Shown piece by piece: positions 3,824 through 21,229 of a stretch of DNA of 26,836 nt (within the stretch, counting starts at the first letter, position 1; the number at the start of each line of letters is the position of its first letter). The position numbers and the translations under genes are program-made. The notes beneath the pieces are model-generated. The model ran no database searches and was not told the origin of the DNA. It saw only the letters and a program-made list of their open reading frames with translations. Location of the stretch: NCBI GenBank assembly GCA_027600665.1, contig JADGJL010000287.1, positions 1-26,836 on the forward strand. Direction: 5' to 3'. The stretch comes from Irineochytrium annulatum (lineage: Eukaryota; Chytridiomycota; Chytridiomycetes; Chytridiales; Chytridiaceae).

Positions 3824-6033
3824 TTAAAACGCCGCAATTAATTCCCCGTCCGAGTTCTTCTCGTCCCTCTCTAATTCTGCAATCACATCCCCAGCCGTTG
3901 CAAACCCTGAATCGCCGCTGGTGTATATAACTACCGGTTCTTGAGATTCGATGCTGGCGATGCTTTCAGGAACAAAGACAAGCCCGTCCCACGCGTGTGG
4001 CAATACCGGCAAGACATCCTTCACTAAAGTCACTAACTTCGACGTCCTCGGAGCGTCTTGTGCAGTGTTCGTTCCGCCGTCACTCCCGCTATTACTGCTA
4101 CTGTTACTGCTGCTACTGCTCAAAGTACTGCTGCTATTAAAGGATACGTTGACGAAGGTCTTCAGTCGAACTCGGAAGGTGTCGGCGGTAGTTACTTGAG
4201 GGTTGGCGTTTCGGGGGTTGATGAGTTCAGTCTGGACGGTCAGGAGGCGCTTGGAAAGCGGCAAGGTCTGGTGAATGACGTGACCATCGAATACGAGGCA
4301 GTCAATGATGAGAAATCGAGGGATAGGATTCCCGTGATCGACATCCGTGACAAGTTCCCCTTGAATGACGGTGTTGGTTACGGTATTTGAGTGCGGAGTA
4401 GCAGGGTTTGGAGCCTTCCGAGGAAACGTGACTTTAACGTTGAAGAGCTCGCCATCCGCATTCAGAATGAAGACGCCTTCGCTAATTATAAGCATTGTAA
4501 AGTGAATGCCCTTTGTCTACACATTCATTAGACGAGCCACATATAAAACACCGACCTTCCATGTTGCATAATGTTCGGTAGCCTTCACCAATGCAACCGA
4601 TTCCTTTGCAAAAGGGACGCTTGGTCGTAGATGAGGTGAAAAATGCTTGCCTGCACCAAGTCAATGTCCGGGAGGAGAAACGTGCACGCACCATGGAGCA
4701 GCTTTACCAGCGTGTCTTTAAGCCGCTCGAGGTGTGGAGGCTTCACACTAACGCCAATATGTCGTGATGACGGGCTTGTCGGGCTTACGATCGTCGGACT
4801 TGGCATAAGGGCCCTGTGTTTCGTCGTCTCCTTCCCAATTTCTAAATCCGCAGGTCTTTTTCGCAAAGTCGGAAGGTCGGGCAGTTTAAAGACAGCAGGC
4901 GGCACGGGAACAGGTTTCTAATAGGTAGTCAGAACACGGTGTGACAGAACGCTCGAAGTAGTACCACAAGTTTCTTGTATTCGACATCCCAAGCTGGAGC
5001 CTCAGGATACTTCGCATGTAACGGCATATTTTCGTTATACTTTCGATACAAGTCGTCAATCATTGCCCCTGAAGAGAATGAATGTCTCAAACGAAGAAAA
5101 AAGCCTACGTGAGTAGATTCCTGGACTTCTTGCGGTTTTAAATGCGTCAATCGCCGCAAAGACGTCCCAACTGTTGACTTCTATTAAATATCGAACGATC
5201 ATGTAGCCCGTGAGATTGTATGACAGCGTATCATGAACTCCGATCACGGCTTTTGGTGTCTTCGCATGTTTTTAAGGCCCGCCAGAAGCAATAATGCAAA
5301 CCTTTCGAAACAAGACTTGACATGTCTTGACGAAAAGAGTAACGAGCTTCTCGCTCGGCGGATTGTAATCATCATCACACGCGAAGTTAACGTAGGTGAT
5401 CTTGGCAACGGTCAGATTCAGTCACGCGACGATACTACACATTATTTTCGTTCCAGGTCGATTTCTTGTATCTAGGAGGACGAAACGAAATAAACATGAA
5501 GAACAAACAAGCAGGCACGGCTGAACAACTCACCTCGGCGGGTCCGTCTCCGAGCTTAGGTCTACCACCATCATCATTTGGCGTTGCGCAGCGATCAACT
5601 ACCACACGAGCAAACATGAGCGTCCGAAAGGCCTGGAGCAAGCCGCAGACTGACGAGGGATGATAACGCACCATCTCTGGAGTAAATGTATGCTCCTCGT
5701 CCATGCCGTATCCGTCCCCGATCGGCGTCTTAAACGGAAGAAAGCCTGAAGAGGCCATTGAAACACTGCTCATTCTGCAAGAGCAACTTTACCCTCGACA
5801 ACTTTGCCCTTGCGTGCTGCATCAGTCCACAGAGCCGGGAGAGGCAACACGGCACTTGGCATCGCCGGGATCCCCTCCACCGAAGGTGGTCGGATTCCGC
5901 TGTTGTCGGTTGGCAACTGCCCGTGCGCTTCCCCTTGCTGGTCCAGGGGTTCGAGCTTCTGCTGAGGTTGGTGCTTCTCCCTCTCCTCGATAACGACCTC
6001 CTCGTCCGTTGTGAGGAGCGAGGACAGGAGCAT
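3824..6033 (-). CDS. Bifunctional mRNA capping enzyme homologue, probable pseudoenzyme
   Basis: Nine exons on the minus strand: 6033-5793, 5745-5534, 5464-5441, 5400-5302, 5259-5109, 5068-4968, 4917-4692, 4650-4556 and 4516-3824. They give about 613 residues, close to metazoan capping enzymes (about 600). A 39-nt in-frame intron at 5671-5633 is possible. Residues about 70-265 match the cysteine-phosphatase-type RNA triphosphatase (GFLPFKTPIG; ARSPGIY). About 345-570 match the guanylyltransferase (motif IIIa RFLIIDCLVFDG; motif IV DGLVF). In active enzymes the first removes the 5' gamma phosphate and the second adds GMP through a lysine, in the nucleus. Here HCxxGxxRTG reads HDTLSYNLTG (Cys202 to Asp, Arg to Leu), KxDGxR reads KTKGIH (Lys383 kept), DGE reads QGE, and motifs V and VI are absent. 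A Ser-rich insert fills residues about 509-530. The start at 6033 was chosen to clear the divergent gene; Met at 6129 is an alternative. The homology is firm, loss of activity is inferred, and the micro-exon 5464-5441 is the weakest part. Confidence 0.85.
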
Positions 6034-6121: not shown

Positions 6122-6579
6122 ATGAGCATGAGAGCGCTCCTTGCGTCGGTGCTGCTGATGTCGCTGATTTCGCTAGTGGCGACAGCGAGCCTGGAGGGAG
6201 ACGTCTTCTTTGCCCGGGACGTTTTCGTGGCAAACCTCACCACCGTGCCACTTCGCCGGGACATGGCCGCGACAAGTTTGCAGCCAAAACAGACGGCGAT
6301 ACCAACCTCGGCGGCACGACCTTGTAAGTTAAATTAAACGCACTCTCTCTCACACCGTATTTGACTATCGACGTTGCAGCTCCATCTGCCACGGGAAGCT
6401 TCGTTTGGCCAGTTCCTTTGGTCAAAAACCCGTACGGAACGACCGGCATATACGTGTATATTCCAACAAGCATCATTGTCGAACTGGGATACACCACCTC
6501 GGCGGCTTCCACTTTCCAAATATGTTGGCATCTCGTCGCGTTCCTCTCATGTTGGAACATATTCGCAGATACATTTTGA
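6122..6579 (+). CDS. Small secreted protein, unknown function
   Basis: Exon 1 is 6122-6323 and exon 2 starts at 6380. The intron has a textbook gtaagt donor, a ttgac branch-like site and a gcag acceptor, and it keeps phase. A second, in-frame 45-nt intron (6524-6568) is possible and would replace a hydrophobic, Trp/Cys-containing end with a short one. The N-terminus is a typical signal peptide: a basic start, a hydrophobic core (LLASVLLMSLISLVATA) and a likely cut after ATA. The mature part is only about 80-110 residues, Ser/Thr/Ala-rich, with a central hydrophobic beta-like stretch (TGIYVYIPTSIIVELGY). No family was recognised. It sits between two minus-strand genes and converges with the glycosyltransferase 44 bases downstream. 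A longer open frame on the opposite strand exists but lacks comparable splice and signal evidence. Confidence 0.5.
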
Positions 6580-6623: not shown

Positions 6624-8604
6624 CTAGCGATTTGCTCGCCGCCGCATAGTGTATGATGGTGATGAAAGCCCCGAATGAGATGAAAGCCCCGACTGAGCGC
6701 CTCTAAACTCCTGAAGTGAGACGGCAGGAAGAACAGCTAAATTCGCCTTCGACCGACTCATTCCGTTCGCGGTGTGCGCCGTCGTGTGATCCTCGCCATT
6801 CGACGGACGGTGTTTGTCCTCGGCGTCAACAGCGTTGCCCGATTCAGAAACGATAGAGTCTGCCTCCGAATCCATATCTTCGTCTCGGACGTCCTCATCC
6901 TCAGAAATATCATCCTCATCGTCCTTCTTCTTATCATACGGAGCGACCAAGAACGGTCCCGCCCCAGCCGAGAAGCTGGTGGTTGTCCCCGGTCCACTCC
7001 CACTTGATGGCAGCTTCCGGTGTTCGTTCGGAAGGCCATTCAAGACCTGAAACACCGCGTCCGCCGACATACCGAGGTAGGAATACATCACGACGCAGAA
7101 GCTCATCGCCAGCGTAGCTCTAGAAGCTGCTCCGCCCAATCCTCCGATATTCATGCCCACGCTCCAGGCCGAATAAGCTGACACGTTCTTTGCATTCGGC
7201 GCCCTCCCCCTTCCACTCGCAAACGCAGGGGTCTGCTTCAAACCCTTATTGGACGGCGGATACTGATGCATCGATGGCGACACGAAACCCGAAGTGACTG
7301 CCGGCGACGGGCCCATGTGCCCACTTGCTGCTTCTTCTCCTTCCATACCAAGGCATCGACCGCCTTCCAGACTGACCACCATGACGTCCTCCACCACCTT
7401 AATCTTCCCCATTCGATGAATTCGGCGCACCAGTTCATACATTTCGAATATCGGTTGGTCCGGAAAGCCCCCTGCTGCTAGGAACGTCTCCGGTCGAGTG
7501 AAAAATGATTGGGCCGGATGAAATGGTTGCTCCAAAATTCTCGACGCAGCGTTAGCTGTCTGCAACAGAGGAAAGAGAGTTGGATCATCGGACTCTGTAG
7601 AAAGCGTGAATGATCCGGCCAGGAAGGAGGGCTGTTGCATTTCCGCCTGACCGGTTGCGGGCACTGTTGAAGGCTCTGTCAACGTAGCTACAATCGTTTG
7701 ATCAAAGGCTTCGGGCTGCATCACCATTGAGAAATCGTCAATAAAAAGCTGCCCTCACCAGAAGCGTATCCGCATACAGAAAAATCAAGAAGTGCCCCGT
7801 TGCGATCCTGGCGCCAACGTTCATCCTCCGCGCCCTTGTACCCACGACACCCTCGACAACTTTAAAATCGTCGTTCAGACGTCGAATACACGCAACGGTT
7901 CCATCATTCGACCCTCCGTCTACCACAATGATCTCGGCGTGCGCGTTTGTTCTCATGGATTGCCTCACGCGCGTAAGTGTCCGCACGATGGATCCGGCGT
8001 CATTCAAAGTCGGAATTATAACAGATATGAGTAATGGCTTCTGAGGCAGAGGGGGAAGGACCGGACGCGCCGCCGCCTTGAACTATACACAGACTTAGAG
8101 AACGATACAACCACGAGGAACCAAACTCATAAAGCCTTAAATCCATCAAAACAAACAAACTACTTCGAAATCAAAGGCGTGACATACCGTAATGAAAGTA
8201 GCGAAGTTGCCCAAAAGCACACCACCAATTCCAATAGCAAGTGCCCACACGCACACCATCCACGCAACAGCCACGGAGAATGCAATTTGAATCGAGTCGA
8301 GCGGGTCCATAAAAAGCCGCTGCATCCTGATCGAGTACAATCGCATCTTCATGTAGGTCTTCTCCGTGTAGGTAAATGGGTGCCTGAAGTTGGAAGCTGC
8401 TGGCGGATGATATTGATAATGATGATGATTCACGTGCGCCCGTGCATTCCGACGATGCGTCGATGAGATATGAGGTTGACTTTTATGAGGGCGAGGTGGT
8501 GGTGGCCTGCTTCGGTGAACTGGCTGCATCGTCGGGAACCGATGATTAATCGCAGGATCCGGCCGAGCAACCGGCGGGGACTTCGACTGCGTGTGTGCCT
8601 GCAT
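6624..8604 (-). CDS. Membrane-anchored GT2-family glycosyltransferase, divergent
   Basis: Three exons (8604-8188, 8082-7759, 7715-6624) give about 610 residues; Met at 8529 is an alternative start. The N-terminal 140 residues are His/Pro/Ser-rich and end in one membrane helix (IAFSVAVAWMVCVWALAIG). A GT-A fold follows, resembling the TIGR04283 family 2 transferases: LLISVIIPTLNDAGS, AEIIVVDGGSNDGT (sugar-nucleotide aspartates), RARRMNVGA and YADT (usually HADT). Exons 2 and 3 join inside this conserved block, which supports the splice. Downstream, the usual GDQ is PAQ and the acidic MEDVE motif is FEMYE, so the likely catalytic acid is missing. Next come a Gly/Ser-rich insert, a hydrophobic segment (about 7050-7130) and a tail with a long Asp/Glu run (about 6815-6950). 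The family call is solid, the donor and acceptor are unknown, and activity is doubtful. It is transcribed divergently from the SNF2 gene. Confidence 0.75.
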
Positions 8605-8697: not shown

Positions 8698-11600
8698 ATG
8701 GACGAGAGCGCTGTCGCCCTTTCGCTCTTGCTGGAGAGCCTGGGCGAGACCGTCGGCAATGGCGTTGGGGATCAGGGGTCTCAGCCCGAGCCGTCGCAAC
8801 CGAACAACCAACAGACCGCTATGAACGCGACACCGAACATGGCGTACAATCCCTTCGCCCAGCGTCCCGGCAATTCCTTTTTAGCCAACGGCTTCAATCC
8901 TGCGGCCGCTGGCTACATGCCGAATGCACTAGGAGGCTACTACCCTTCCGCGCACCCGAACCCAACCATGCCACCGTATCAAAGCCTGCGGCCTCCTGCC
9001 AATGGACAAGGCTATTTTGTCAATGGGGTGCCGTATCAGCCCATGGCGAATCCGTACGTCGCGATGGGCGGGTCGAGAAATTACAAGAATGGTGGTGGTG
9101 GGGGTGGCGGGAGTTCTTCGTGGTATTCGGATCATGGAGGCTCGCGTTTGATGGACCACATCGATCTGACGGACGACGACTACGATTTGCCTCCGAACAA
9201 ACGGTCACGGCCGAAAGACGACGATGGAGAGGACCCAAAGATTATGATGCAGATGGCATTGGCGCATCAGATCGCGATGGCGAAAGTGGCGGGAGATGAC
9301 GCGCTAGCAGCGCAGCTTGAGCAGCAGAAGGAAGCCTTAAACGTTATTAATGTCGATGACGACGATGAGGATGAGGCAGGTGTAGACGCTGCGTTACAAC
9401 GACTAGCTGTGCCAACAACTCCAAAAGCCAAGCGTCCGCGGTTTGATGACGGTGTGTTGATTCTCAGCATTGCCTGGTCCCTTCTGATTGCCTAATACGA
9501 AATTAGGCCGAACACTTTCGTCGGCGTCATCATCCGTGTCCTCATCTTCCGAAGTGATCGATCTGACGGATGTTACCAGCAAAGAGGAGGAAGAGCTGAA
9601 GCGGAATGCGCAGATTGCCATGGAGGCTCGCCGTCAGAAGAAAGAAATGTTTTATAACACCACTGTTTGCTTTGGAGTTATTCCCGCCCACGTCGTCGAG
9701 CTGGAGCATAAAACATATTTGCAGAGCTTTGAAGGTCAAAGAGAGTTGAGGGTTCAGCTGATACCGGAGGAGCGTATTAACGAGCCTGGGGTGTTTGATT
9801 ATTGTGTTCAGAACTATCGAAATCAACTGGTTGGTGTGCTCACACATTTTGAGCTCCCTTTTTTGCTGTTTACTGACTACTTTTTTAGCTTGGATACGTT
9901 GAAAAGCATGTCTCCGAGACAATCTCAAAAATTCGGAAAATGATACGAATGGATGCCGCCATTCCACGTACCCAATTCAATGTGAGGTTTCACTGCTTGC
10001 CGCATACGGAGCCTGAACATCACTTAGAAATTTTCGGCTGATATAAACATTACTATTTATGGGGCCCGACGACATGGCCATGAGATCGGCGCTGCGTTAC
10101 TCATGAACCGAATAACGCTTGGAACAATGATTGTTCGGCACAACCTTCCTTACGAAAACCCCCATCAACATTTAAGCGCTCCGCAAACTTTTGTCAGCGT
10201 GCAACGAAATGAGAGCAATACTGTTGAAGATGCGAAGTCGCAGATCGATGCTATATACAATGCTTTGACGGCTGCTGAGGATTTGCCGCAAATGGAGCCA
10301 GGTTTAATTTCTAACGACGGCATTTACTCAACGCGGTGTAGATCCCGCAATTATCACCTCAATGTACAAGCATCAAAAGCAAGCTTTGTATTTCATGTCG
10401 CAAAAGGAACAAACGGTCGGCTATGCTTCTTTCGATCCGAAGTTATCGCTTTGGCGTTTCGAAAATGGCGTTTACAAGAATGTCATTACGAATGAACAGA
10501 CACCGCAGAAACCTTCGCAGGCAAAGGGAGGGATTTTGGCTGATGACATGGGTCTTGGGAAAACGATTGAGGTCATATCCTTGATAACGAAGCAACGGGC
10601 GACGGATATGTCCGAAATAGTTTGCGATCGGTATCTCTCGTCGAGAGGGACCTTAATCGTTTGCCCGCTGAGCACCGTTCAAAATTGGGAGGAGCAAATC
10701 GCGAGCCACGTTAAAACCGACGCTCTGAAGTTCTGCGTATATCACGGCCCAAACCGAATAATGGACCCAGGACTTTTGGCCGAATATGTACGAGATTTGT
10801 TGGAGTGATGCATCTAATTGATGAAACTAGGACGTTGTGTTGACTACCTATAGTGTTTTATCTATAGAGTTCTCGAAGGACACGAAATCAGCCGCCGTTG
10901 CGAACGCGGTTGCTACAGGAGAGAAGCCGGCGAAGGGGGAGGCAGTGGTTCCTTTGCGTTGGAATTCGCCTCTGCAGTGCATTACCTGGTTCAGAGTGGT
11001 CCTCGATGAGGCACACATTATTAAGGACCCAAACACGGCGCAAGCGAAAGCAGCTTGCCAGCTGTCAGCCGACCGGCGGTGGTGTTTGACGGGAACGCCG
11101 ATTCAAAATCGCTTAGATGGTATGTGTCGGTGTCACCGGCGACGTTAACTGCATTGCAGACTTGTACAGCTTGATTAAATTCCTGAACCTGGAGCCTTTC
11201 AACTCGAAGAATCAATGGAACTTGTACATCTCCAAACCAGCCCGTTTTGCGACCAACTCGATCGGTGTTCAAAGGTTGCAGACGCTAATGAAGTGCATCA
11301 CTCTTCGAAGAACTAAGACCCAAAAAATTGACGGCAAGCCAATTTTAACGCTTCCGGAGCGAGTGGACAACAAGATCATGGTACAGCTAGCCCCCGCGGA
11401 GCAGGCGCTGTACGACCGCGTCCACGCTCGAGCGAAGGCGATCTTCCACGGCTTGCAGGAAAGCGGAACGGTCATGAGGAATTACGTGCATCTCTTGGAG
11501 ATTATTTTGAGGCTTCGGCAAGTGTGTGTTCATCCGCATTTGTGCAAAGACTCGGATCTGGATTTGAAATCGCCTGGTAATCATTTAGCTTAAGGTGTCG

Positions 11601-12786
11601 ATATCTGATGCTGATTGTGTAGACGAGCTCCCCGGAGGCGGGAACGGGCTACCTCCGCTTACTCGCGAGCGCGCTTATCATCTTCTGTCTCTTCTACGCG
11701 ATGCTGGAGACGATCGGTGCTGTAATTGTGAGATAAGTGTGGACACGTTGATAGGCGAGGGAAAGCCTGTAGTGATGGGTCGCTGCGGACATATGTTTTG
11801 CACGGATTGTTCGGGAGCATTCGCTCTTCAACAGTCTATCCCTACGTGTCCTATGTGTGCACACTTGCTTGTCTCCGGGGATCTGCTCGAGATCAAGCTA
11901 GATGAGTCGGTAAGATTATGCCTGTTAATAAAATTTCTTGTATCTTACTCCTATCAGGCTCAAGACGGAGACGATATAGAGGATACAAAGGCCAAGCCAA
12001 AACGGAGCGACGCGGCAACGGCGAAAGCGATGATAGCTCTCGGAAGCCAGCAGAGCACGAAAGTTCGGGCTTTGGTACAAAATTTGCTGGCTGCAAAGCA
12101 ACAGTGCTTAGAGCAAGGGTTGCCTTGTGATAAAAGCGTAATTTTTAGTCAATGGACATCGATGCTAGACCTTTGTACTGTAAGTTATAAAGAGAAAAAT
12201 CTGTTACGTGGGCTAACCCCAATTTGCTTGCCAACAGAAACCTCTTCAAGATGCTGGCTTCATTATCGCGCGGATGGACGGAAAAATGAACCGCATCGAC
12301 CGGTCGAACGCCATAGATCGGTTTAAGAAAGACCCCGCCGTTACCATTCTTCTCATTTCGCTGAAAGCCGGCGGTGTTGGCCTTAACCTGACGACCGCAA
12401 ACCGGGTATACATCATGGAGCCCTATTGGAACCCAGCCGTCGAACAGCAAGCGGTTGATCGTGTCCATCGAATGGGGCAAACGAAGGTCGTCAACACCGT
12501 TCGGTTCATCGCTAAAGGCACCATCGAGGACAACATTCTGCAGCTCCAAGAAAGAAAAATGCAGCTTGCGGAGATGGCGTTCAAAAATAGAGGTGCAGCG
12601 ACCGATGATGGCGATGACGGCATGGGGAAGAAAGGACACAAGAGGGCGAAGGCGCGTCAGGATAAAGCTGATGTAGCAAAACAAAGTGAGAAAAGAAATG
12701 AAATCTGCCTCCTTCAAGTAACATTTCTAATTATAAATGTTTTTGCAATAATAGGGATGCTCGACCTCAGTCTTTTGTTTCAATAA
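8698..12786 (+). CDS. SNF2-family ATPase with inserted RING finger (Uls1/HLTF/Rad16 type)
   Basis: Eleven exons: 8698-9451, 9507-9829, 9889-9981, 10028-10301, 10342-10787, 10831-11119, 11160-11576, 11623-11909, 11958-12179, 12238-12685 and 12755-12786. They give about 1194 residues with phase kept at every join. The N-terminal 300 residues are low-complexity (Asn/Pro/Gly, then acidic) with IDLTDDD, VINVDDDD and VIDLTD, which resemble SUMO-interaction motifs. The ATPase core follows: KHQKQAL at about 491, Walker A GLGKT at 552-556, DEAH at 689-692, TGTPIQNR and motif VI QAVDRVHRMGQ at 1106-1116. A C3HC4 RING (C898, C901, C920, H922, C925, C928, C941, C944) is set between the two helicase lobes. 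This architecture marks the nuclear Rad5/Rad16/HLTF/Uls1 group: DNA translocases that are also ubiquitin ligases, acting in damage tolerance or on SUMOylated proteins. A canonical HIRAN domain is not clear. The SUMO-like motifs favour an Uls1-like role, by inference. Confidence 0.92.
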
Positions 12787-17623: not shown

Positions 17624-20600
17624 ATGTCCCAGCTGTCGTTTCTCGAATTCGCTCCCGACACTCAGGGGAGCCAGTATGAGCACTCGGTGGACTTCACGGG
17701 AGAGTCGCAGCTGGATACGCAGACCCAGACGCAGACGCAGACCCAGCTGGACCTTTCGATTACTCAATCTCAGACGGAGGGTTCCCTACGAGCCGGTCGC
17801 TTCGCCCGGCATGATTATGGCGAGGACGAGCGGATGGATCTGACGCAGGCGACTTCGGAGATGAATGCTCGCGATGATTCGCTGGTGGCGGAATGTGAAG
17901 GTTGCCCTGGCGTAGATTTTTTCTAAATCTACTTTAGTGGATGATGTGAACGGAGATGAGGATGAAGAGAGTCAGGTTGACTTTAAGGACCTTCCCGAGC
18001 ACGCTTGCAAGTCCGTTTATTGTTATGTCTGTATTGTATCTTATTGAATCCATAGATACTGTGGGATCCATTCTCCACCGTCCGTCGTAAAGTGTCTCCA
18101 CTGCTCGAAATGGTTTTGCAACTCTCGTGGCAGCACTTCAGGTGCTCATATTATCTCGCATTTGGTGCGAGCGAAACACCGCGAAGTGTGTCTTCATCCG
18201 GAGGGCCCACTGGGTGAAACAATTCTGGAGTGCTACCTTTGCGGGTGCCGAAACGTGTTTTTGTTGGGCTTCATTCCTGCAAAAAGTGACACGGTCGTCG
18301 TTCTTTTGTGCCGGTATTTGCTTAATGCCGTCGACTTACAATTAAAGTAATTGCCAGCCAACCGTGCGCATCGACGCCTTCCTCGAAGGATGCGACGTGG
18401 GATGTCGCTCAGTGGCTTCCATTAATTCAGGACCGGTCTTTCCTTCCGTGGCTTGTGAAAACTCCGACTGATGCCGAGACGAGCCGAGCCCGCCACGTCA
18501 CTATGGCAAACATCCAGGCGATCGAGGAGGTATGGAAGGAGAATGCGAATGCCGGCATTGAGGACTTGGAGAGGGGCGTCTTGGGGGAGGAGGATGAGCC
18601 GATTCCCGTCTTACTCAGGTTCGCTTATCTTGCTAATCCTTATTCTCAGTAATGTTTAGGTACGAGGACGCGTATCAGTATCAGAACATCTTCGCGCCGC
18701 TGGTGGCATTGGAAGCAGAGCACGATAGGAAGTTGAAAGAGGCGCAAACCCAAGACAGTGTTGTTGTGCGGTGGGATATCGGCCTTAACACGAAGAGGAT
18801 CGCGTATTTTACGTTGCCGAAGCTTGAGCAGGGTGAAGTTCGTCTTGCTGTCGGGGACGAGCTGCTTCTGCGATACAAGGGCGAGTTAGCGGCGCCGTGG
18901 GAAAGCCGAGGACATGTCATTAAGATTCCCAACTGTAGGCATTAGACGAGTGTTAAATCAGCATGTTAATGACCTTGCAGCGGCTTCGGACGAGGTTGCG
19001 CTTGAAATTAAAAAGCAAGACAAAGCTCCTGTCGATTGCACGCATAACTTCACTGTCGATTTTGTGTGGAAGTCCACTTCGTTCGATCGGTAGGGTACTG
19101 AGTTTGGTGGGGCTGATAATGGTTAGCATGCAGAGTGCCATGAAGAAATTTGCCGTCGACGAAAACTCCGTGTCCGGTTACATCTACCACCGTTTGCTTG
19201 GACACGACGTCGAGCCTCAAACTCTCCAGGTCAAAATGCCGAAGCGATTCACGGCTCCGGATCTGCCTGATTTGAACCATTACCAAGTGTCGGCCGTGAA
19301 GGGTGTTCTGATGAAGCCGCTGAGTTTAATTCAAGGTATTATATTTATACAGACTAATCTAAATTGAGTAAAGGTCCGCCTGGAACTGGTAAAACTGTTA
19401 CATCGGCGACTATTGTGTACCATTTAGCGAAGATGATGCCTGGGCCGGTTCTTGTTTGCGCCCCGTCGAACGTCGCTGTGGACCAACTGACGGAAAAGAT
19501 CCATCTGACTGGTTTGAAAGTGGTTCGCGTTGCGGCGAAGTCTCGGGAGGAAATGGATTCGCCGGTGGCGTTCCTCTCGCTTCACGAGCAAGTTGCCAAT
19601 AATGATACAAACCCCGAGCTGCAGAAGCTTATTCGATTGAAGACGGAGCAGGGCGAGCTCAGCTTCCAGGATGAGAAAAAGTATAAGTCCCTGAAGAAGC
19701 AGGCAGAAAAAGAAATTCTGGGAAATGCAGACGTTATTTGCACGACTTGTGTCGGCGCGGGAGATCCTCGACTGTCGAAGTTAACCTTCCGGACCGTTCT
19801 CATCGACGAAGCAACTCAAGCTGGCGAACCCGAATGCTTGATCCCGTTGGTAATGGGAGCCAAACAAGCCGTTCTTGTCGGCGATCATCAGCAACTTGGC
19901 CCCGTTATCATGAACAAGAAGGCGGCTAAAGCTGGTTTATCGCAGTCCTTATTTGAAAGGCTTGTCATTTTGGGAATTCGTCCGATCCGTCTGCAGGTTC
20001 AGTACAGAATGCATCCATGCTTGTCCGAGTTTCCGTCAAACATGTTTTACGAAGGCTCTCTGCAAAACGGTGTCACGGTTGCTGATCGCCTGAGAAAGTC
20101 CGTAGACTTCCCGTGGCCAGTTCCGGAGACCCCGATGTTCTTTTTGGGCTCTTTTGGGCAGGAGGAGGTGTCGGCTTCAGGCACGTCATACTTAAACCGA
20201 ACGGAGGTTTCGAACTGTGAGAAGATTGTTACGCGCTATTTACAAGCCGGCATCCTACCATCTCAGATTGGAGTTATCACGCCGTACGAAGGGCAGCGTG
20301 CGTTCATCGTTTCTTACATGCAGTTTACGGGATCGATGAAGAAGGAGCTGTACAAGGAGATTGAAGTAGCATCGGTGGATGCTTTCCAAGGACGTGAGAA
20401 GGACTACATCATCCTGTCATGTGTGCGCTCGAATGAACATCAAGGCATTGGATTCTTGTCGGATCCACGGCGTCTAAATGTTGCCCTCACCCGCGCCAAA
20501 TACGGCATTTGCATCCTTGGAAACCCGAAAGTGTTGGCGAAGCATGCGCTCTGGTATCAGCTTTTAATGACATTTAAAGAGAGGGGATGTCTCGTGGAGG

Positions 20601-21229
20601 GGCCGCTTAACAACCTTCATGAGTCTGCGATTCAGTTTATGAAGCCAAGACGCGGCTTGAATCCTAACGATATGAACTACAAATACAGGCGTCTGCAAAG
20701 CGAGATGCGCGTTATGCAAACCCCTCCTGCTATTCAAGGTACGGCTTTTGGCAAGTAATTTTTCATTAACGATTTGGAAGGCATGCGGCCGCGCAACGCC
20801 TTCGATAGTGGCGGCATGGTTCAACCGTTCGATTACCGATTTGATGCCTACTCGGACGGGCAAATGACTCAAGAACAAGCGTATATGCGCATGTCTCAGA
20901 GCTACTCGAACTCCTTTGCTAGGCCTCAGCCTGTCCCGAAATCGAGTAAGACGAATGGGGGCTTGAGCAAAATGCCTCTCTCGCAGCAATCGAGCGGCAT
21001 GCCGTTGACGCAAGGATACTCCTCGCAGGCGGCTTCTCAAGGCGCATCCACTTCCGGGCCCTCGACGCAGCCGTTGTCGCAGGCGCCGTCGACAGGGATG
21101 TCTCAGACGGATAGGCTGGGCCTTGGCGATGACGCTGACGACTACAAGAGCCAGGGTGATCCGTTCTTGCTGAGTCAAGACTTCGGCAGCCTCGGCTTAA
21201 ACAGCCAGACGGGATTTACGCAGTACTAA
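17624..21229 (+). CDS. UPF1: UPF1-type RNA helicase of nonsense-mediated decay
   Basis: Nine exons: 17624-17900, 17938-18010, 18056-18313, 18358-18618, 18660-18934, 18981-19089, 19127-19335, 19374-20738 and 20781-21229. They give about 1091 residues, like animal UPF1. The Gln/Thr-rich N-terminus is followed by the Cys/His-rich UPF2-binding domain from C116 ([19 protein letters not shown]). Then come the 1B region ([12 protein letters not shown]), Walker A GPPGTGKT at 488-495, motif II DEATQ at 633-637, [14 protein letters not shown] and the motif VI region VALTRAK. UPF1 is an ATP-dependent 5'-3' RNA helicase that, with UPF2 and UPF3, triggers decay of mRNAs with premature stops in the cytoplasm. 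Both ends are rich in SQ/TQ pairs, as in animal UPF1 where SMG1 phosphorylates them. The exon 8-9 intron separates the helicase from the SQ tail. Confidence 0.96.

Follow-up and report, generated by a model that had tools for sequence, protein, structure and literature searches.

The minus-strand gene described here, judging from its sequence, encodes a protein homologous over its full length to the bifunctional capping enzyme of metazoan/plant type, and neither of its catalytic sites retains all of its defining residues. The gene lies in contig C311 of a 26.9 Mb assembly of 1082 contigs; this contig, 26,836 nucleotides long, is the whole stretch of DNA that was analysed and is referred to below as the window. 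The active-site losses and a truncated C-terminus are common to this protein and its two orthologues, pointing to a conserved double pseudoenzyme, and the presence of the same altered protein in two related chytrids suggests that it has been retained for a non-catalytic job and is not a broken gene. The explanation that we favour, with a probability of roughly 0.45, is that the protein may act as a non-catalytic regulator of capping that docks on the Pol II CTD and derives from an ancestral opisthokont fused enzyme.

Gene model and kinship with fused capping enzymes

The rebuilt open reading frame runs from 6033 to 3824 on the minus strand in nine exons separated by GT..AG introns of 39-69 nt, and encodes 613 aa with no stop or frame break across all nine exons (Table 1). 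Exon 1 is supported by the alignment, in which its W-T..R-G-VVEGFLPFK block is common to both orthologues. The model is uncertain in the region of exons 2 and 3, at about residues 107-159. Reading in frame through the 69-nt "intron" gives 636 aa, and a number of alternative splices also obtain good scores with the orthologue models in a scan that mostly rewards length. None of the catalytic motifs lies within this region. A serine-rich insertion inside the GTase-like domain (NSSSTLSSSSSNSSSNSGSDGG; 4073-4138, minus strand, residues 510-531 of the 613-aa model) is missing from both orthologues. When the orthologue from Chytridium was searched against the whole 26.9 Mb assembly, every one of its six matches at E up to 10 fell within the capping-like gene, so that the fused protein was seen in a single copy.

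Table 1. Positions in the window of the exons, former catalytic motifs and CTD-pocket arginines of the capping-like gene
Feature	Position	Strand	Remarks
Exon 1	5793..6033	-	Start codon and N-terminal tail; ends in WT-xxRKG-VVEG block, ahead of triphosphatase domain
Exon 2	5534..5745	-	Triphosphatase-like (DSP) domain begins, FLPFKTP; 3' end uncertain
Exon 3 (KSTWNENN)	5441..5464	-	Boundary uncertain; may continue from exon 2 by read-through
Exon 4	5302..5400	-	DSP domain, ITYVNF..VLFRK
Exon 5	5109..5259	-	DSP domain, holds altered P-loop
Exon 6	4968..5068	-	End of DSP domain
Exon 7	4692..4917	-	Linker, then start of GTase-like region (PHLERL..KLL)
Exon 8	4556..4650	-	GTase-like domain as far as motif I lysine (codon 4558-4556)
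Exon 9	3824..4516	-	Remaining GTase-like domain and stop codon, no OB fold after; PF01331 E 1.1e-18
Altered phosphatase P-loop, HDTLSYNL	5212..5235	-	HCTHGFNR in human; Cys replaced by Asp, Gly by Ser, Arg by Leu
Motif I (altered) after its lysine, TKGIH	4502..4516	-	K-TKGIH in place of KxDGxR; Asp replaced by K/Q/Q, Arg by His
Motif III (altered), QGE in place of DGE	4355..4363	-	By alignment to human
Motif IV, DGLVF	3974..3988	-	Retained, with the DG
Motif V (KWKP) position, EPVVIYTS	3917..3940	-	Both lysines gone
Arg at human R358 (CDS2)	4316..4318	-	Retained; Arg also in four fungal-type GTases compared
Arg at human R392 (CDS2)	4211..4213	-	3/3 chytrid proteins, 0/4 fungal-type GTases
Arg at human R411 (CDS2)	4166..4168	-	3/3 chytrid proteins, 0/4 fungal-type GTases

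The protein is colinear over its full length with mammalian bifunctional capping enzymes (8p4b, E 7.2e-46, with a profile that includes the two orthologues), and it displays a cysteine-phosphatase-type triphosphatase (TPase) domain N-terminal to a fused GTase domain. In a 542-aa version without exon 1, Pfam recognised the capping-enzyme GTase domain PF01331 (E 2.6e-23) and gave a DSP match (E 0.017) that falls under Pfam's cut-off. The profile of the TPase domain scored 112-113 bits with mammalian capping enzymes, 41 with 1yn9 and 38 with DUSP11 (4nyh), while that of the GTase domain scored 52-53 bits with the mammalian enzymes versus 32-33 with yeast GTases. Identity to the human TPase domain is 49/155, 52/152 and 50/150 (32-34%) for the three chytrid proteins. 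Meanwhile, identity in the GTase domain is 22-27% to all 14 compared sequences alike (1 human and 13 fungal-type).

A tree of the GTase domain (17 sequences, one of them animal) placed the chytrid proteins without support (value of 31 at the decisive node; stem of length 2.4), and the AU test gave p values of 0.47-0.50 for three trees, the third nearly the same as the ML tree, so that neither a human-side nor a fungal-side position is rejected. Since the tree does not decide and the identities are alike, the putative animal-type origin is based on the fusion of the two domains, on the TPase domain, on the profile scores and on R392/R411. Two scans of IMG/VR for a viral source yielded 106 and 84 pattern matches, none of them confirmed, which is weak evidence as each scan used two short peptide patterns.

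The window also holds several neighbouring genes. A divergent ORF on the plus strand (6122-6324) begins 89 bases upstream from the start codon of the capping-like gene and has a hydrophobic, signal-peptide-like N-terminus (MSMRALLASVLLMSLISLVATAS); the two genes would have a very short promoter region in common. On the minus strand, 6624-8082 contains exons of a gene with the stretch SVIIPTLNDAGSIVRTL..IIVVDGGSNDGT, which presumably resembles a family-2 glycosyltransferase; the 376-aa ORF at 6627-7754 on this strand had no Pfam match at E 0.01. Further along the plus strand, 11589-12783 holds a RING-like match that narrowly misses Pfam's cut-off and, after it in another frame, a helicase C-terminal domain, perhaps exons of one RING-helicase gene, and 19358-20755 is a 466-aa open frame with AAA_11 and AAA_12 domains, which we take to be the make-up of UPF1-type superfamily 1 helicases.

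Active-site residues in three chytrid proteins

Two orthologues passed E 1e-3 among the 8000 candidates scored from a collection of 5.8 billion proteins. One, HDU67_005580 from Dinochytrium kinnereticum, is 43% identical over 96% of the query; the other, from Chytridium lagenaria and named "protein-tyrosine phosphatase-like protein", is 42% identical over 97%. Each has E about 1e-113. Since both species are Chytridiaceae, the window comes from a chytrid and probably from this same group. The search was word-based, and more distant relatives, canonical capping enzymes included, are absent from the matches listed. A second, alignment-based search with 8000 candidates scored added only the Circinella GTase (E 2.4e-4).

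In the phosphatase P-loop, the HCxxxxxR(S/T) signature is replaced by HDTLSYNLT, HDVLSYNVT and HDILSHNVA in the three species. The human residues H125-C126-G129-R132 correspond to H-D-S-L in the window protein and to H-D-S-V in both orthologues, so the Asp and Ser are common to all three proteins while the Arg has become Leu, Val and Val. In the Trichomonas enzyme, the P-loop is reported to be necessary for phosphatase activity (PMC2904801).

The GTase-like domain displays comparable losses. Motif I reads KTKGIH, KTQGTH and KTQGTH in place of KxDGxR, motif III reads QGE in place of DGE in all three proteins, with G and E retained, and both lysines of motif V (KWK) are replaced in all three. 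In human numbering, K294, G297, G344, E345, D363, D438 and G439 are retained throughout, and D296 (to K/Q/Q), R299 (to H), D343 (to Q), K458 (to I/T/V) and K460 (to T) are lost throughout. Past motif IV the protein continues for about 50 residues (about 35 in the orthologues), and the profile of the OB fold with motif VI (PF03919) matched none of the three; as the protein ends shortly after motif IV, the OB fold and motif VI are missing. The motif V lysines and motif VI of GTases contact nucleotide phosphates, and guanylyl transfer needs both motifs.

The protein has thus lost conserved catalytic residues and is conserved across species, and we infer that it is a pseudoenzyme without RNA-capping activity; the survival of the motif I lysine speaks against this. 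By these marks it is a homologue of the fused capping enzyme that falls outside that enzyme class and has the sequence features of a pseudoenzyme. The initial annotation had described nine phased exons giving about 613 residues colinear with bifunctional capping enzymes, which the rebuilt frame and the profile match bear out. It had also described the P-loop and motifs I, III, V and VI as altered or missing; this holds for the P-loop, D296, R299, D343, motif V and motif VI, and has to be narrowed for motif I, where Lys and Gly are retained, and for motif III, where GE is. A structure predicted for the Chytridium orthologue was poor (mean pLDDT 51, with block means of 55-88 over residues 331-480 and below 60 over the TPase part), its input being an alignment of eight sequences that left out the window's protein.

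CTD-binding residues, other capping genes and possible roles

In the human capping enzyme, the Ser5-phosphorylated Pol II CTD is described as binding at CDS1 (R330, K331, R386) and at CDS2 (R358, K403 and R411, with R392), with a Tyr1 pocket around L381 and with E436 as a proposed link between CTD binding and the active site (PMC8034621). L381 is retained in all three chytrid proteins, as are the CDS2 arginines of Table 1; R358 and L381 are also present in all four fungal-type GTases used for comparison, which come from C. albicans, S. pombe, Circinella and one further source. The chytrid proteins have lost CDS1 (R330, K331, R386) and most of CDS-Y1, K403 is replaced by T, and E436 by A/I/A. 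The last loss says little, because the four fungal-type GTases do not have Glu at this position either. With CDS1, K403 and most of CDS-Y1 not conserved, CTD docking would be partial at best, and the retained CTD-pocket arginines may be structural. Collectively, the retention of R358, R392, R411 and L381 together with the loss of CDS1 and of catalysis fits a CTD-docking protein that shed catalysis.

Based on these residues, we propose that a pseudoenzyme without RNA capping docks on the Ser5-phosphorylated Pol II CTD via the remaining CDS2 pocket. Docking would then be uncoupled from catalysis, and the protein would serve as a scaffold or competitor that adjusts how the active TTM-type capping enzymes are recruited. 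By the simplest account it would descend from the ancestral opisthokont fused enzyme, retained once the TTM system took over the catalytic work.

Part of this system is readable in the same genome. A TTM (Cet1-type) RNA triphosphatase is encoded on contig C221 (9049-10000), where the strands LEIEAKLG, KVRV and ELEVEF can be read in the unspliced frames; one matched stretch runs over a stop, which is probably an intron. A cap methyltransferase is encoded on contig C503. Meanwhile, no intact guanylyltransferase was recognised in the assembly with the PF01331 profile, two fungal GTase proteins and two motif patterns. The PF01331 profile at E up to 10 matched, besides the capping-like gene, one exon of a DNA ligase IV-like gene (identified by reading of the frames). 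S. pombe Pce1 as query gave a single match (E 0.18) that was judged from the frames to be chance, and the single match of the Circinella GTase (E 2.3) lay outside its GTase domain. The pattern EK[STA]DGxR matched twice, once out of frame in a PPR-like gene and once as EKADGSS in an unrelated frame. Neither of the two matches to [hydrophobic]LKWKP was GTase-like, one lying in a frame with stops close by and the other in a frame that overlaps a second long open one. Such patterns would miss a GTase gene with a motif split by an intron. In the six frames of 38 loci, the GTase profile at E up to 1 matched only the loci of the capping-like gene, and the PF03919 profile matched nothing in the genome, nor did it match the controls.

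Fourteen proteasome subunit loci are expected, and by our count 12-13 were found, on 12 contigs, placing the completeness of the assembly at about 90% by this proxy. Because of this figure, we consider an assembly gap the likeliest reason for the missing guanylyltransferase. The intact second capping enzyme that the initial annotation had suggested looking for in this genome was therefore recovered in part, as a TTM-type triphosphatase and a methyltransferase without a guanylyltransferase, and the regulator view has against it that no active guanylyltransferase was found in the assembly for the protein to regulate.

A TTM triphosphatase in the genome would also suit a non-catalytic structural partner of that triphosphatase or of a GTase, one that does not itself bind the CTD. 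The sequence is enough to recognise both domains, and Cet1 binding is reported to stimulate Ceg1 in yeast (PMC3813497). We regard this role as somewhat unlikely, since residue-level signs of such an interface are absent and the only non-catalytic residues tested, the CTD-pocket arginines, point to the CTD.

Conservation of the former active sites bears on another possibility. Identical columns among the three proteins make up 46/60 in the former P-loop and motif I, III and IV segments, whose borders were picked by us, versus 164/466 in the ungapped columns elsewhere (Fisher p about 1e-9), suggesting that the pockets have changed yet been held fast. Such strong conservation, together with the remaining motif I Lys, motif III GE and motif IV DG, would be consistent with a sensor or decoy for 5' ends or nucleotides, one that binds RNA ends, GTP or caps in its altered P-loop and GTase pocket without turning them over. 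However, the P-loop Arg is Leu or Val and its Cys is Asp, and the motif V lysines and motif VI are gone, which makes this role unlikely in our view.

Residual or new catalysis, with the retained motif I lysine still bonding covalently to a nucleotide or the pocket catalysing some other reaction, would find a basis in K294, present in all three proteins, and in the migrated catalytic residues mentioned for some pseudoenzymes (PMC10211241); the loss of D296, R299, D343, K458, K460 and the OB fold from all three makes it improbable. Even less credible is that this is the sole guanylyltransferase-family protein of the fungus, with capping performed by it and a partner, or by a guanylyltransferase of some other kind: the failed searches and the completeness estimate given above speak for it, but an assembly gap suffices for one missing gene, a motif-internal intron would hide it from the patterns, and the capping-like protein is without motif V, motif VI and the OB fold. 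Equally hard to credit is a decaying relic or pseudogene, for while catalytic residues and a whole domain are lost, two orthologues share the same losses and the truncated C-terminus, and in simulations of neutral drift to about 46% identity (two lineages) stops averaged 8.6 per lineage, with zero stops in 2/20000 runs, against none across the nine exons here. The earlier view of a protein kept by selection and not a decaying copy is upheld by these orthologues and simulations and by the conserved former active sites. The roles put forward with it, a scaffold or regulator of capping or a decoy, are conjectural, and the CTD-pocket arginines add a partial argument at residue level for CTD docking.

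The gene also bears on the history of capping in fungi. According to PMC2904801, the TTM-type triphosphatase and the guanylyltransferase of fungi are separate, the cysteine-type enzyme of animals and plants is fused, and the way in which this difference between lineages arose is an open question. A fungal genome with both a TTM triphosphatase and an altered fused enzyme offers a concrete test case for when fungi swapped capping systems. More tentatively, and with less confidence than in the regulator itself, Chytridiaceae might keep the ancestral animal-type enzyme as a dead, CTD-bound regulator of the TTM-type system that replaced it. If true, this would be a living record of a capping-system switch inside fungi and evidence that the opisthokont ancestor carried both systems. 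A capping-enzyme homologue with both sites lost would also be a natural way to separate Pol II recruitment from catalysis. A literature search for "capping enzyme" with "chytrid" returned, by title, only virus papers (subscription journals and preprints being outside its scope), and the best-ranked titles listed in searches with other terms included no paper on such a chytrid protein.

Comparison with known capping enzymes and pseudoenzymes

The closest known system is the metazoan/plant bifunctional capping enzyme (human RNGTT, mouse Mce1, Trichomonas TvCE), which has the same domain order, full-length colinearity and the CDS2 arginines R358, R392 and R411 in common with the chytrid proteins. 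These differ in that they have lost Cys, Gly and Arg from the P-loop, Asp and Arg from motif I, Asp from motif III, the motif V lysines, the OB fold and motif VI, and in that their hosts are fungi. The fungal guanylyltransferases Ceg1, Pce1 and Cgt1 have the GTase domain family PF01331 in common with the capping-like protein. Unlike it, the members compared are without a phosphatase domain and R392/R411, and possess KxDGxR, KWKP and the OB fold; the capping-like protein is thus no stand-alone GTase of the Ceg1 type.

An inactive GTase-like domain is found in CMTR1. As in the capping-like protein, this domain resides within a protein of the capping pathway, and the G-patch, RrmJ methyltransferase and WW domains described for CMTR1 (PMC6071836) had no match in the capping-like protein, the RrmJ/FtsJ methyltransferase giving no Pfam match at E up to 1 in the 542-aa version. 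STYX-type pseudophosphatases are likewise members of the DSP family with an altered catalytic motif (PMC10211241). STYX is described in the same source as revertible by one residue change, whereas Cys, Gly and Arg are all changed in the capping-like P-loop, and the DSP domain of the capping-like protein further differs from the STYX type in being fused to a GTase-like domain.
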